NCBI GenBank assembly: GCA_025453925.1
Contig: JALOPK010000234.1
Coordinates: 1-9,483, forward strand
Origin: Candidatus Eiseniibacteriota bacterium
GTDB lineage: Bacteria > JAFGKV01
DNA: 9,483 nt
Direction: 5' to 3'
Part shown: positions 4,312 to 9,346 of the stretch, piece after piece
Layout: each line of letters starts with the position of its first letter
How positions within the stretch are numbered: the stretch's first letter is position 1
Notes under the pieces: generated by a model
Told to the model about the DNA's origin: nothing
Seen by the model: the letters and a program-made list of their open reading frames with translations, nothing else
Database searches by the model: none
Program-made: the position numbers and the translations under genes

Positions 4312-4464
4312 GCTGGAGATGGCCCGGTCACGGAGCGGCCCGGCGGCCCTTGACAGCCCCCGCCGAATAGCGGGAATTGGCCTCGCCGTCACAATGAACG
4401 CGGCCGGAGAGAGACCGCCGGTTCCGCTGGCGTGCCGGAGACTCAAACCTGGAGTGCGAGCTGC

Positions 4465-5967
4465 ATGAACTCAGGCGCCGTGGCGGGCGGACTGGCCATA
4501 CTCTTGGGATACATGGGATTCACCTTCTGGCAGACTGCGATGACGCGCCGCTGGGCATGGCTCAGGTCCGTGCGCGTGATATCGAATCTCGCCGTGCTCT
4601 CGGCCGCGGTGTACGCGCTCCTGACGATCGGGGATTCCCCCGCGTTCGGGCGGGCACTCCCCTGGGCGCGCACCTGCGCCCAGTTCCTCTGGGCCTACCT
4701 CGTGATCAGGCTCTTCGATGCGGTTCTCTTCGACAGCGCGGTCGGCCGCCGCCACGGCGTGTGTGTCCCCCGTCTGCTACGCGACATCATCCGCTGGCTG
4801 GCGGCATTCCTCCTGCTGCTGGTCATCCTCCGGGTCAACCTCGGCATCAACCTGACGCCTCTGGTGGCCACCTCCGCGGCACTGACCTTCGTGCTGGGCT
4901 TCGCCCTTCAGGATGTGCTCGGGAATCTGTTCGCGGGTATCGCCATAAACTTCGAGAACCCCTTCTCTATCGGTGACTATGTCTCGATGGACGGCCATGA
5001 TGGCAAAGTGGACAATATGAATTGGCGCGCGACGCGCATTCTGACGTACAACAACGAGTACGTAACCGTGCCCAACTCCGTTGTCGCCAAAGGCACTTTC
5101 CTCAACTACAGCCAGCCTCAGCTCCCCAAAGGCCGTTCGTTCTTCATCAGCATCGGATACGAAGTGCGCCCCAATCGGGTCAAGGCGGTCCTCCGTGAGG
5201 CGCTGGACGCCGTTCCCGAAGTGCTCGGTGACCCGCCGCCGCGCATCTGGTTGATAGAGTTCGCGGAGCACGCGATCTCGTACCGCGTCAAGTTCTGGGT
5301 ACGGCGGTTCGATGACGGGTACGACGCGGAGGATAGGGTCAAGTCACAGGTCTGGTACCATCTCAACCGCAACGGCATCACGATTCCTTACCCCCGCCGC
5401 ACCGTGCAGATGGTCGCCGCGGAAGAAGCCTCCGCGCTTCAATCCCGCCATTCCCAGCGCGCGAAGAACCTCCTCCAGCGAGTGCCGCTGTTCGCGGGGC
5501 TAGGTGATGAGCGGCTCTCCACCCTGGCGGCCGAAGCCTCGGCCGTGTTCTATGCGGCGGGAGAACCGCTGGTCCGCCAGGGCGATACTGGTGACTCCCT
5601 CTACCTCATACAGCAGGGTGTCGCCGACGTGAGCCTGGCCCAGGCTGACGGCCCGGAAACCACGGTGGCCCGACTCGCGCAGGGCGACTTTTTCGGTGAG
5701 ATGTCGCTTCTGACCGGAGAGCCCAGGGGCGCGACCGTCCGCGCGGCTGAAGACAGGCTGGTGCTGGTCATCCGCAAGGAGCACCTGGGCCCGATGCTGG
5801 TGGAGAATCCGGTGATCGCCGAATCACTGGCCAAGGCGATGGAGCGCAGGCAGGCGGAAAACCTGGCCAAGATCGCCACGACCCGTATGGTGACCGAGGA
5901 GGAGCGCAACGAGGCATCCTTCGGGGCAATCCTGAAACGAGTCAAGGGCTTCTTCGGTCTGAGATAG
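4465..5967 (+). CDS. MscS-type channel with C-terminal cyclic-nucleotide-binding domain
   Basis: The 500-residue protein joins an MscS channel to a cNMP-binding domain, the layout of bacterial cyclic-nucleotide-gated (bCNG) channels. Seen in order: membrane helices near 5-25, 36-55 and 66-88; a pore region (102-165) with LTPLVATSAALTFVLGFALQ (130-149) and NLFAGIAI (154-161); the MscS beta domain (ENPFSIGDYVSMDG, 164-177; VPNS, 202-205); the alpha/beta C-terminal domain; then a CNB domain from about 337 (VPLFAGL) to 455. The phosphate-binding cassette is GDFFGEMSLLTGEPRGATV (407-425), which keeps Glu412 and Arg421, the residues that hold the ribose and phosphate; the position after Arg is Gly. 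The family responds to tension weakly or not at all in some members and to cyclic nucleotide in others, so gating here is inferred. ATG 4465 was chosen because it starts close to the first helix; an in-frame GTG at 4432 would add 11 residues. The ribosome site is weak (GGAG 4451-4454, 10 bases away). Confidence 0.88.
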   Translation: MNSGAVAGGLAILLGYMGFTFWQTAMTRRWAWLRSVRVISNLAVLSAAVYALLTIGDSPAFGRALPWARTCAQFLWAYLVIRLFDAVLFDSAVGRRHGVCVPRLLRDIIRWLAAFLLLLVILRVNLGINLTPLVATSAALTFVLGFALQDVLGNLFAGIAINFENPFSIGDYVSMDGHDGKVDNMNWRATRILTYNNEYVTVPNSVVAKGTFLNYSQPQLPKGRSFFISIGYEVRPNRVKAVLREALDAVPEVLGDPPPRIWLIEFAEHAISYRVKFWVRRFDDGYDAEDRVKSQVWYHLNRNGITIPYPRRTVQMVAAEEASALQSRHSQRAKNLLQRVPLFAGLGDERLSTLAAEASAVFYAAGEPLVRQGDTGDSLYLIQQGVADVSLAQADGPETTVARLAQGDFFGEMSLLTGEPRGATVRAAEDRLVLVIRKEHLGPMLVENPVIAESLAKAMERRQAENLAKIATTRMVTEEERNEASFGAILKRVKGFFGLR

Positions 5968-6092: not shown

Positions 6093-6490
6093 CCACCCGC
6101 TGTCGGATCGTTGATGCTCCGCCATGGCCCCGCAATGCTCGATGTTGGAGCGTCGTAAGGCGCGACGGCAGGGCCAGGCGACATTCGCGGCTCACGCCGC
6201 TCCGATACTTCGATTGGACTGCCCCTTCCTGTTCCGTGCGGGGGGGCCATCCACCCGTTGTCGGATCGTTGATGCTCCGCCATGGCCCGGCGATGCTCGA
6301 TGTTGGAGCGTCGTAAGGCGCGACGACAGGGCCCAGGCGACATTCGCGGCTCACGCCGCTCCAACACTTCGGTTGGACTGCCCCTTCCTGTCTCGATGTT
6401 GGAGCGTCGTAAGGCGCGACGACAGGGCCCAGGCGACATTCGCGGCTCACGCCGCTCCAACACTTCGGTTGGACTGCCCCTTCCTGTTCC
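6093..6490. repeat. Array of three REP-pair (BIME-like) elements
   Basis: A unit of about 96 bp occurs three times: 6138-6232, 6296-6391 and 6392-6487. Copies 2 and 3 are identical over 96 bases and directly adjacent; copy 1 differs at four positions and lacks one base. Copies 1 and 2 are also preceded by a shared 45-bp arm (6093-6137 and 6251-6295, three differences), giving a 158-bp period. Inside each unit two REP-like sequences face each other. The plus-strand one begins GTTGGAGCG with a GCGTC/GGCGC stem and a GTAA loop (6308-6321 in copy 2). The minus-strand one begins GTTGGAGCG with a GCGGC/GCCGC stem and a GTGA loop (6346-6359). Both have the GGAGCG head typical of REPs such as those of Pseudomonas and Xanthomonas-type genomes. 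Elements of this sort are moved by RAYT (TnpA-REP) transposases acting from elsewhere in the genome; none is present here. Confidence 0.8.
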
Positions 6491-6689: not shown

Positions 6690-6740
6690 CTATGAGTAAA
6701 CGATTCCCTCCCCATCCGGTCAAAGAAACGAACCCGTGCA

Positions 6741-6747
6741 GAAAGGA
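6741..6747 (+). promoter_or_regulatory. Shine-Dalgarno site pointing to a TTG start for the adaptor gene
   Basis: GAAAGGA lies 6 bases before an in-frame TTG at 6754. The alternative GTG at 6736 has only weak A-rich sequence before it and would place this ribosome site inside the gene. Confidence 0.45.
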
Positions 6748-6753
6748 CCGTCT

Positions 6754-7746
6754 TTGATCCATCGTGTCGCGCTCTTTCTCACCGTTCTGGCCGTTGCCGT
6801 CGCCTTGGCCCATCGGTTGGACGGGCGCACGATCCGCACCGGCGGCGTGGTCACTCCCCACGCCGAGTGGAAGCTCATTGCCACCGAGGGCGGCATCGTG
6901 GAGCAACTTCAGCGCAACGGCGTGACGGCGCTCTCCCGGGGGTGGCAGGGCATCCGCGGTGATCCAATCGAGATATCGCTGTTCAGCCTTCCGGGAACCG
7001 GCGACACGGTGAGAGCCGGCCAGCGCGTCGCCCGGGTCGTCTTTCCATTGGAGTCCCACGGCCTCGCGACCTCGAACGCACGGTTGGATGGCGCACAGGC
7101 CGAACTACGATTACTCCAGGCCGGTCCCCGTCCCGAGGCGGTGGCGGCAGCAGCGGCGACCGCCCGCAGTGCCCACCTGGAGGCGACGCGGGCAGCATCC
7201 GAGGCGGCACGCGCCTGCTCCCTGTGGGCGAGAAGCCTGATCTCCCGGGAGGAGTATGAACGGATAGCTGCCGGGGCCCAGGTGGCCCAGGCAGACGCCG
7301 AGGCCGCCCTCGCCGAACTCGATCTGAGCAGGGCGGGCCCTCGATGCGAGGAGCTCGACGCAGTGCGGGCCGAGATCGCGGCGCTGGAAGCGGAGGCGGC
7401 CGAAGCCATGGATCGCGCCGAGACGACCATCGTGTCTGCTCCCATGGATGCGGTGATCGGCGATCTCCAACCGGATTGTCTGATCGTCCTCCAGAAAACC
7501 GACACGGTGCTCATCGCCCTCCCGCTGGATCAGCGGGTCTGGAACCGCGTGACGCCGGGCGATCCGGTGGAAGTCACGAATCATCGAAGATGCAAGGCCA
7601 CCGGCGTGATCGCGCGTCTGGGCCAATCCGCCGGCGTGATGGGCACCTCCGTCTCGATGGCGGCGTTCGCCGAGGTGCCCAACGGGACGCTCGGGCTGAG
7701 GCCTGGCATGACGGTACGGGCGGTGATCAGGCCGGGGAGCTCCTGA
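6754..7746 (+). CDS. HlyD-type membrane-anchored periplasmic adaptor, first gene of a polyphosphate operon
   Basis: The protein has about 330 residues (336 if GTG 6736 is used). An N-terminal membrane anchor (5-19, VALFLTVLAVAVALA) is followed by a first half-lipoyl/barrel segment (29-95, ending TVRAGQRVARV), then a long alanine/glutamate-rich coiled-coil hairpin (104-220), which includes SLISREEYERIAAG. The second half-lipoyl motif is TTIVSAPMDAVIGDLQ (224-239), and a beta-barrel part ends with GLRPGMTVRAVI (314-325). This is the layout of HlyD/MFP adaptors, which in the inner membrane and periplasm bridge a transporter to an outer-membrane channel. No ABC, MFS or RND pump and no TolC-like gene is in the window. 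Its stop overlaps the ATG of the VTC gene (TGATG, sharing one A at 7746), so the two are probably translationally coupled. The partner and cargo are unknown; the context suggests a link to polyphosphate or to an envelope function of the VTC/DUF4956 pair. Confidence 0.75.
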   Translation: MIHRVALFLTVLAVAVALAHRLDGRTIRTGGVVTPHAEWKLIATEGGIVEQLQRNGVTALSRGWQGIRGDPIEISLFSLPGTGDTVRAGQRVARVVFPLESHGLATSNARLDGAQAELRLLQAGPRPEAVAAAAATARSAHLEATRAASEAARACSLWARSLISREEYERIAAGAQVAQADAEAALAELDLSRAGPRCEELDAVRAEIAALEAEAAEAMDRAETTIVSAPMDAVIGDLQPDCLIVLQKTDTVLIALPLDQRVWNRVTPGDPVEVTNHRRCKATGVIARLGQSAGVMGTSVSMAAFAEVPNGTLGLRPGMTVRAVIRPGSS

Positions 7747-8522
7747 TGCGGAGTGCAACCCCCGAGTGGCGCGAGGAGTTCAAGTACTGGGTCGATGGGG
7801 ACCAGGCCCGGCGGATCATCAGCGCCATCAAACCCTTCGCCGCCCCCGATCCTCACACCGATCCCTCGGGTGAAGCGACCTATACGGTGCGCAGCGTCTA
7901 CTATGATTCGCCGTGTTTCGACTTCTACCACCAGAAGCTCGACGGACTCAGGTTCCGCAAGAAACTCCGGGTTCGTTCGTACGGCGGCAGTGGTCTGACC
8001 CCCCATCTCTTCCTTGAGATCAAACATAAGCGAGGCCGCCTCGTGCTGAAGGAGCGGGCCAAGTTGCCATCCCGCCTGGGATTGATCGCCCTGACAACGA
8101 ATGCCCCCTCCCTGCTCGCCGGTCCGGATCTTCCCGCCGGCACCATTCGCGTAGCGGGGCGCTTCATGTGGCTCACCCGTCAACTCGCCCTCACGCCGGT
8201 GATTCTGGTCGCGTATGACCGGACGGCCTATGTCGACCGATCCAACGCCGATGTACGTCTGACCTTGGACCGGAAAGTCCGGAGCCTCCTGCGGCCTGCC
8301 TGGGAAGATCTCCTCGACGATGCCGACCTCCAGCCGTGCACCAACGGCCATGTGATTCTGGAATTGAAGTTCTCGGGTCGGATGCCGCAGTGGATGCGGT
8401 CCCTGCTACGTGAGGAAGGGCTCATGCAGCGTTCGATCTCGAAGTACTGCATGAGCTTGGAGAGCTGGATGGCTCACCTGCGAGCGCCGTCGGCACTCCC
8501 CGTGAGCACCGCGGGGGATTGA
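7746..8522 (+). CDS. VTC-domain polyphosphate polymerase
   Basis: The 258-residue protein is one VTC domain, related to the catalytic tunnel domain of yeast Vtc4, which makes polyphosphate from ATP. Features seen: EFKYW (11-15); VRSVYYDS (48-55); a basic strand with K64, R69 and RKKLRVRSYG (71-80); FLEIKHKRGRLVLKER (89-104), with the acidic metal-ligand type residue E91 and several basic residues facing the tunnel; YDRTAY (157-162); R171 and D175; ELKFSGRMPQW (206-216), with E206 and K208; and SISKYC (230-235). The spread of basic and acidic residues on alternating strands is as expected for an active enzyme. No membrane helix is present, so it is likely cytosolic and held at the membrane by the DUF4956 protein. 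GGGGAG lies 6 bases before the ATG. A longer upstream reading frame in this phase is the shadow of the adaptor gene and was not used as a start. Confidence 0.9.
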   Translation: MRSATPEWREEFKYWVDGDQARRIISAIKPFAAPDPHTDPSGEATYTVRSVYYDSPCFDFYHQKLDGLRFRKKLRVRSYGGSGLTPHLFLEIKHKRGRLVLKERAKLPSRLGLIALTTNAPSLLAGPDLPAGTIRVAGRFMWLTRQLALTPVILVAYDRTAYVDRSNADVRLTLDRKVRSLLRPAWEDLLDDADLQPCTNGHVILELKFSGRMPQWMRSLLREEGLMQRSISKYCMSLESWMAHLRAPSALPVSTAGD

Positions 8523-8525
8523 GGG

Positions 8526-9203
8526 GTGTTCGAGCATCTACTGGTGGAGGCCGACGCCCTCTCCGTGGACCTGGTGCTGCTGCGGGTCGCGCTGGCATTT
8601 CTGCTGGGCGTGGCGACTGCAGCTCTCTACTGGCTCACCAACGACACCCCCAGCGGCTCCCGCAGCTTCATGAACACCCTGGCAATGTTGTCCATGGTCA
8701 CCGCCATGGTGATGATGGTGATCGGCAACAGCATCGCCCGAGCCTTCAGCCTGGTGGGCGCCCTGTCGATCATCCGGTTCAGAACCGCGGTGAAGGACAC
8801 CCGGGATACCGCCTTCGTGTTCCTCGCCTTGGCCGCCGGGATGGCGTCGGGCACCACCGAGACCGTCCTGGTGGTGTCTGCCTTCGCGGGGGTTGCGGTG
8901 TTCGTCTATGTCCTGCACGGCCTCAGGTTCGGGACTGCATCAGGAGCCGCCATGGTGCTCACCTTCTCGGTGGTTCCGGACGAGCACTCCCAGGAGTCGT
9001 CGATGGGTATCATCAAGAAGCACAGCCGGATGATCGCCCTTGCGGGCCTTCATACCCAACGTCAAGGCCAACTGGTTGAAGTCTCGTATCTGCTGGAAAT
9101 CCGGCGGAACTCGACCGCCCACCGACTGGTGGCCGACCTGAGTGCGCTCCCCGGCATCACCCGGGTCGCCATCTCGCCGGGTGATCGCGTGTCGGATCAG
9201 TAG
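8526..9203 (+). CDS. DUF4956 membrane protein, partner of the VTC polymerase
   Basis: The 225-residue protein belongs to the DUF4956 family, which commonly lies next to VTC-domain genes in bacteria. Hydrophobic helices are near 16-36, 52-69, 94-107 and 112-132. The family signature lies at 71-110: ARAFSLVGALSIIRFRTAVK, then DTRDTAFVFLALAAG. It combines a conserved RFRTA basic motif with a glycine-rich helix. The C-terminal 90 residues are soluble and include a beta-alpha-beta-like part (VEVSYLLEIRR, 184-194; ITRVAISPGD, 211-220). The start GTG at 8526 is 3 bp after the VTC stop, with GAGG just before it, so it is very likely in the same transcript. The molecular role is not established. Anchoring the polymerase or moving polyphosphate across the membrane are inferences from its constant company. 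Confidence 0.88.
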   Translation: MFEHLLVEADALSVDLVLLRVALAFLLGVATAALYWLTNDTPSGSRSFMNTLAMLSMVTAMVMMVIGNSIARAFSLVGALSIIRFRTAVKDTRDTAFVFLALAAGMASGTTETVLVVSAFAGVAVFVYVLHGLRFGTASGAAMVLTFSVVPDEHSQESSMGIIKKHSRMIALAGLHTQRQGQLVEVSYLLEIRRNSTAHRLVADLSALPGITRVAISPGDRVSDQ

Positions 9204-9231
9204 CGGCCGCCTTCCACGCCCCGACCCCCTT

Positions 9232-9346
9232 CCCGTTCCCGTTCACGTCCCCGTCCTCGTTCACGTACCCGTCCCCGTTCACGTCCCCGTTCACGTACCC
9301 GTACCCGTACTCGTACTCATACTCGTTCCCGTTCACGTCCCCCGTC
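9232..9346. repeat. Degenerate 6-bp tandem repeat downstream of the operon
   Basis: Eighteen consecutive hexamers of the form C-[C/A/T]-CGT-[T/C/A] run in perfect phase from 9232 to 9339, with a single variant (CTCATA at 9316-9321). One extra C shifts the phase before a last unit at 9341-9346. Examples are CCCGTT, CACGTC, CACGTA and CTCGTT. Only positions 2 and 6 vary, in a non-random mosaic. It starts 28 bp after the DUF4956 stop and is non-coding in all likelihood. Read on plus frames it would give Arg-Ser/Pro/Thr or Pro-Val/His-Val dipeptide repeats. Confidence 0.8.

Follow-up and report, generated by a model that had tools for sequence, protein, structure and literature searches.

Three closely spaced genes on the plus strand

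The window, by which we mean the whole contig analyzed here (9,483 bases, from a genome with a completeness of 82%), carries three consecutive plus-strand genes that the preliminary description had placed with a one-base overlap at 7746 and a 3-bp gap. Reading of the sequence confirmed these coordinates, and the features are as follows.

6741..6746, plus strand: AAAGGA, likely ribosome-binding site 7 bp 5' of the adaptor TTG, as read from the sequence
6754..7746, plus strand: VTC-associated periplasmic adaptor (HlyD/MacA-like, 330 aa), assigned by profile, predicted fold and subfamily linkage to VTC
7744..7748, plus strand: TGATG stop/start overlap of adaptor and VTC, from the sequence and from close spacing in 32/36 loci
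7746..8522, plus strand: putative VTC-family polyphosphate polymerase (258 aa), assigned by PF09359 and profile alignment to yeast Vtc4
8526..9203, plus strand: DUF4956 membrane protein (225 aa), assigned by PF16316

The adaptor gene runs from a TTG at 6754 to a TGA at 7744-7746, with an in-frame GTG at 6736 as an alternative start. The ATG of the VTC gene (7746-7748) has one base in common with this TGA, and its own stop ends at 8522, 3 bp before the GTG at 8526 that opens the DUF4956 gene, whose stop ends at 9203. Through the TGATG, translation of the adaptor and VTC is probably coupled. Among loci with the same gene order, 32 of 36 have an in-frame VTC start no more than 30 bp from the adaptor stop (11 of them overlapping), and 35 of 37 have a DUF4956 start at most 30 bp from the VTC stop; because so many loci share it, the close spacing is not a matter of chance. 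The earlier proposal that the three genes make up one operon is supported by this order and spacing, which are conserved in relatives. In a close relative (G001), opposite-strand genes come after the operon. A consensus scan 5' of the adaptor found no sigma-70 promoter, this consensus being uninformative for the host phylum, and a search for RNA elements gave no Rfam match.

The adaptor is predicted to fold like MacA and EmrA

By single-sequence comparison, the first gene resembles the HlyD family weakly. It falls below the cut-off of Pfam HlyD_3 (16.7 vs 22.2 bits) and matches the NCBIfam HlyD model PRK03598 at 1.3e-20, which is under that model's own cut-off. Its assignment as an HlyD-like periplasmic adaptor, made in the preliminary description, became clear once profiles and a predicted fold were considered. 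The adaptor profile matches the solved adaptors MacA (8.4e-19, the strongest), EmrA (2.5e-13) and AcrA, and the predicted model (pLDDT 86; Foldseek 2.4e-14) compares to MacA with a VIA Z of 16.6 over 241 residues at an rmsd of 16.2, the hinge angles between domains being different. From this model, the protein is predicted to fold like MacA/EmrA and to consist of an N-terminal membrane helix, a lipoyl (barrel-sandwich) domain, an alpha-hairpin with four long helices and a beta-barrel. An extra stretch is inserted in the lipoyl domain before its GDxVxxG turn, and it is common to the adaptor-first loci and to a set of M50 peptidase-HlyD fusions (L263, L265, L267). The HlyD half of these fusions is the nearest relative of the adaptor outside VTC loci, but it is fused to PqqD-like and M50 domains, and no VTC or DUF4956 gene was found in the locus.

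The adaptor subfamily is linked to VTC and inherited with it

The profile used in our surveys was built from 20 adaptor sequences seeded from loci already adjoining VTC. It was searched genome-wide, so positives were not restricted to VTC loci despite this seed, and more diverged family members away from VTC could escape it. Across the 81 genomes of the phylum of G047, 21 strong matches were obtained (192-427 bits), 20 of which lie directly upstream of VTC, while the remaining one (G098:C72) is cut by a contig end. The next-best matches in this phylum reached 107 bits (seemingly the other half of the G047 adaptor, which is split between contigs) and 105 bits, and generic adaptors scored no more than 80 bits. 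A survey of 366 genomes across Bacteria gave 13 matches that reach 179 bits. Ten are stand-alone genes, all of which adjoin VTC, and the other three form the C-terminal half of PqqD-M50 peptidase-HlyD fusions. Nine of the ten stand-alone loci also have DUF4956; at the tenth (G002:C124), VTC lacks it, and DUF4956 comes after a second copy of VTC that lies on a different contig. Thus G002 carries two VTC genes on separate contigs (L014, L015), one with the adaptor and the other followed by DUF4956. The preliminary description had named a location mainly beside ABC, MFS or RND pumps as the outcome that would make the link accidental; neither the 81-genome nor the 366-genome search showed any association of the subfamily with such pumps.

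Comparison of tree distances over 32 loci gave correlations of 0.78 for adaptor and VTC, 0.88 for adaptor and DUF4956 and 0.90 for VTC and DUF4956, and none of 2000 permutations reached the observed r (permutation maximum 0.31). Inside one phylum, the three proteins correlate at 0.88-0.91. The adaptor tree therefore follows that of VTC (r 0.78), a comparison that the preliminary description had asked for, and the trees of all three proteins agree, although shared genome ancestry adds to this agreement, which shows joint inheritance and not physical contact. Together, these observations support a dedicated partnership of the adaptor with VTC and DUF4956.

The second gene retains residues that align with yeast Vtc4

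The VTC protein matches PF09359 at 7.3e-41 (140.7 bits vs a cut-off of 23) over model positions 2-234 of 235, and its profile matches yeast Vtc4 at 6e-23 with basic residues and a Glu aligned. Ten residues (K13, R75, R77, K93, K102, R159, R171, E206, K208 and K233) are invariant in 15 bacterial VTC sequences and align with equivalent residues of Vtc4. We take these to be the tunnel basic residues and the metal-binding Glu that make up the catalytic set of Vtc4. Homology thus points to a triphosphate-tunnel fold, and from the same relationship to Vtc4 the product would be polyphosphate. VTC is the sole Pfam domain in the 258 residues, where neither an SPX domain nor a Vtc1-type membrane domain was found, and hydropathy indicates no membrane segment.

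Yeast VTC synthesizes polyphosphate in the cytosol and feeds it into a membrane channel whose wall carries basic residues (PMC9911596). The eukaryotic complex (Vtc1/Vtc3/Vtc4) resembles the present unit in its homologous catalytic domain with aligned basic residues and in cytosolic synthesis beside a membrane partner; it differs in that the bacterial protein has neither SPX nor fused Vtc1-type helices and is accompanied by DUF4956 and, in addition, by an adaptor. PPK1 is also present in 14 of 40 host genomes, including that of the window, so VTC is not always the sole maker of polyphosphate. The idea that VTC replaces PPK1 was dropped in view of this mixed picture.

DUF4956 is distantly related to MgtC

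The third protein matches PF16316 at 3.5e-15 (56.6 bits vs a cut-off of 30.6). It has five predicted helices with a conserved GALSIIRFRTxVKD motif, followed by an ACT/ferredoxin-like domain (ACT/NikR/S6 fold), and conservation is highest in the membrane motif and not in the ACT-like domain. Its predicted model has a pTM of just 0.54, and solved structures gave weak matches only, to the ACT-like domain, so that the membrane part was barely probed by the fold search.

No match of the window protein to PF02308 (MgtC) was found at E 0.1, and DUF4956 genes beside VTC in three genomes have sub-threshold matches of 23-24 bits (E 1e-4; cut-off 31.4). Alignment of the DUF4956 profile with the MgtC membrane core by hhalign gave a probability of 94-96% (E 1.5e-7 to 3.6e-9), compared with 0.1-0.2% for soluble decoys and no more than 1.3% for unrelated multi-helix decoys. 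The high-scoring "decoys" turned out to be either diverged DUF4956 genes that adjoin VTC (L133, L151, L286, L287) or proteins from MgtC loci (L323 and L324). Independently of the profile comparison, a Foldseek search with the ACT-like part placed the MgtC C-terminal domain at rank 5 (E 5.7e-3). By these profile and fold comparisons, DUF4956 is distantly homologous to the MgtC/SapB family, including its C-terminal ACT-like domain (window 8526-9203; L316-L333). The two share the membrane core motif as well as this domain, whereas DUF4956 stays below the PF02308 cut-off, has an RFR...K motif where MgtC has a loop and has VTC as an operon partner. DUF4956 thereby gains a structural relative, and no paper mentioning both DUF4956 and MgtC was found in the open-access literature searched. 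None of the tests run gave homology of DUF4956 to the Vtc1 channel. The MgtC relatives of DUF4956 are not known to us as polymer channels.

Distribution of the adaptor-first order

With the window adaptor as phmmer query, homologues placed immediately before VTC were obtained from KSB1 (L033), a second MAG phylum (L034), G047, G056 and an uncultured proteobacterium (L038). The order adaptor-VTC-DUF4956 was present in 19 of the best 30 VTC loci from the phylum of G047 (82 genomes, including the KSB1 record), in 11 of 17 VTC loci from the phylum of G061 (39 genomes), and in one record each from Deltaproteobacteria (L035) and Myxococcota (L036). Contigs of a same-genus relative (G001, JAFGKV010000147) and a same-family relative (G002, JAUXFG010000133) are labelled Candidatus Fermentibacteria, and the order is known from Fermentibacteria, KSB1 and its phylum, the second MAG phylum, Deltaproteobacteria and Myxococcota. 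Over 30 loci belonging to several phyla keep the gene order and spacing; most loci come from metagenome assemblies. Among the best 30 loci of the G047 phylum, the adaptor is found in 19 of 23 that have DUF4956 vs none of the 7 that do not, for which the hypergeometric chance is about 1.6e-4.

Two of the loci surveyed have further peculiarities. In G047 (L016:2356-3117), a separate SdiA-regulated/phytase-like propeller gene lies 3' of DUF4956, and at a contig end in L158:2231-2968 the translated stretch FFFFKQKTAYEIYQCDWSSDVCSSDL resembles sequencing-adapter contamination of the assembly.

A second arrangement with TolC-like genes

In Myxococcota the usual order is VTC-DUF4956-HlyD, with an HlyD-type gene right after DUF4956 in 19 of 20 extended loci (taken from the best 30 VTC matches of 188 genomes; HlyD Pfam-checked for several). 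At least six of the 20 have an OEP/TolC-like gene after HlyD (L170, L175, L177, L178, L180, L184). These adaptors are distant kin of the window adaptor: hhalign relates them at 99%, direct profile search finds them weakly, and the alignment begins only after the extra lipoyl stretch. Unlike the window adaptor, most of them pass the Pfam HlyD-type cut-off, as does the adaptor of G037. Several Myxococcota adaptors carry a C-terminal propeller fusion (L175, L178-L181, L184, L185), some with weak phytase-like PF13449 matches, and the propeller, here as in the separate gene of G047, is possibly a partner that processes a phosphate polymer.

In G037, genes for DUF4956, an HlyD adaptor, OEP, VTC, a lamin-tail-like protein and two CotH proteins follow one another, and on a contig of G128 OEP lies directly 5' of VTC. 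Altogether, an OEP/TolC gene is part of the unit in L018, L170, L175, L177, L178, L180, L184 and L119. A 447-aa gene of L224 and a 409-aa gene of L182, considered as OEP candidates, gave no Pfam match and were left uncounted. No OEP/TolC gene was seen in the window or adjoining any adaptor-first locus, and the window genome has 15 OEP domain matches elsewhere. Pump genes of the ABC, MFS or RND type were found neither in the window nor, in relatives, among the three genes.

Gram-positive pel operons can have a CotH-VTC-DUF4956 cassette as a neighbor (PMC7112168). Such cassettes share the adjacency of VTC and DUF4956 with the present operon, which differs in having the adaptor first, a diderm host, no CotH gene and no pel genes in the window. 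That CotH is missing from the window, as noted earlier, was borne out, and a search elsewhere in the genome, which had been suggested, located two CotH genes on other contigs. CotH adjoins the cassette in several relatives, and many adaptor-first loci have none beside the operon. Cassettes of CotH, VTC and DUF4956 that lack an adaptor occur in Gram-positives and Alphaproteobacteria, so the core function does not depend on the adaptor.

A possible synthesis-coupled exporter

VTC homologues and DUF4956 occur widely in bacteria and have no assigned function, and we know of no established bacterial route for polyphosphate export. Adaptors of two lineages accompany VTC and DUF4956, each lineage in its own position, and some of the cassettes include TolC-like genes. 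This suggests that VTC and DUF4956 work with an envelope conduit and is hard to explain otherwise; the partnership turns them into a concrete export-machine hypothesis. We lean, if only by a little, toward reading the operon as a polymer exporter of the diderm envelope, coupled to synthesis and made up of VTC, DUF4956, the adaptor and an outer-membrane channel. The membrane-spanning polyphosphate machine proposed in the preliminary description is supported in part: the results establish linkage of the genes, their joint inheritance, the protein families and the predicted folds, from which product, channel role, assembly, direction and motor are inferred. The narrower proposal of a polyphosphate secretion system, in which the polymerase is the motor and the MgtC-like DUF4956 the inner-membrane channel, and which was assembled at least twice with two distant adaptor lineages, is offered more tentatively. 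In the open-access literature searched, which leaves most subscription journals outside, we found no description of VTC or DUF4956 with HlyD, MFP or TolC, and the novelty of the adaptor-VTC-DUF4956 unit is to be read relative to that literature.

In such an exporter, the cytosolic VTC would lengthen a polyphosphate chain with the gamma-phosphate of ATP, as homology to Vtc4 suggests, and DUF4956 would thread the chain across the inner membrane in the role of the yeast Vtc1-type membrane helices, with its conserved RFR...K motif perhaps serving as an anion-binding path. With its N-terminal helix as inner-membrane anchor, the adaptor would form a periplasmic tube around the DUF4956 exit and could dock on a TolC-like channel that is encoded elsewhere in the genome, or inside the cassette in some relatives. 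The MacAB-TolC, EmrAB-TolC and AcrAB-TolC pumps use an adaptor that shares its family and predicted fold with this one, and some relatives of the operon share their OEP partner, but here VTC and DUF4956 occupy the place of the ABC, MFS or RND pump. Since the operon has no such pump, polymerization itself would be the motor. Most speculatively, the exported chain might function on the cell surface or within the periplasm and be used there by CotH-type kinases or phytase-like propellers that relatives encode nearby.

Several other explanations were weighed against this exporter. The genes might cooperate while the product stays periplasmic, or the adaptor might be a scaffold (a wall anchor or envelope sensor), with no passage through the outer membrane. 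The adaptor-first operons, having no OEP gene, fit such an arrangement, as does the ability of the core cassette to work without an adaptor in other bacteria, but the predicted adaptor model still has the long alpha-hairpin by which adaptors of known pumps dock on TolC, and OEP genes lie in the Myxococcota and G037 cassettes and before VTC in G128. We regard it as unlikely, although it keeps more weight than the other alternatives. Rather improbable, in our judgment, is that VTC makes or attaches a different product, such as short phosphate chains for CotH kinases or for the decoration of surface polymers, which the adaptor then delivers. CotH, lamin-tail and beta-helix surface proteins do recur near the cassette, which accompanies Pel polysaccharide genes in Gram-positives (PMC7112168), yet VTC retains the residues that align with yeast Vtc4, and CotH is missing beside many adaptor-first operons.

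The kinship of DUF4956 with MgtC also raises the question of whether it is a regulator like MgtC and not a channel, the adaptor then working with an unlinked pump. ACT-like folds often bind small ligands. The C-terminal ACT-like domain and the strength of the MgtC profile match (96%, vs at most 1.3% for unrelated membrane decoys) would suit a regulator, but the peak of conservation in the membrane motif and the close covariation of DUF4956 and adaptor distances make this role improbable to a degree that leaves it little room. An accidental neighborhood, with the adaptor as part of an ordinary efflux pump, would draw on the commonness of adaptors and on the 15 OEP domain matches, which point to ordinary pumps elsewhere in the genome, but it was rejected by the survey of adaptor matches and is now scarcely credible, given a stand-alone subfamily linked exclusively to VTC, agreeing trees and no adjacent pump gene.

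Other features of the window

A phage or mobile origin was considered and rejected, since a pattern scan found no relative in viral contigs. At 455-1970, a PMT_2-type glycosyltransferase frame appears to be split over the overlapping frames 455-1252 and 903-1970 by a frameshift or an assembly error. Upstream of the adaptor, at 4432-5967, lies a gene for an MscS channel with a cyclic-nucleotide-binding domain. Its counterpart in G001 (L013:8705-9427) ends just 87 bp 5' of the adaptor, so MscS may share the transcription unit in this genus. Between the MscS gene and the adaptor, the window has two perfect 96-bp tandem copies (6296-6487) with related sequence at about 6100-6300, for which there is no room in G001. 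Immediately 3' of the operon, at 9226-9342, lies a degenerate 6/18-bp CCCGTT repeat array.
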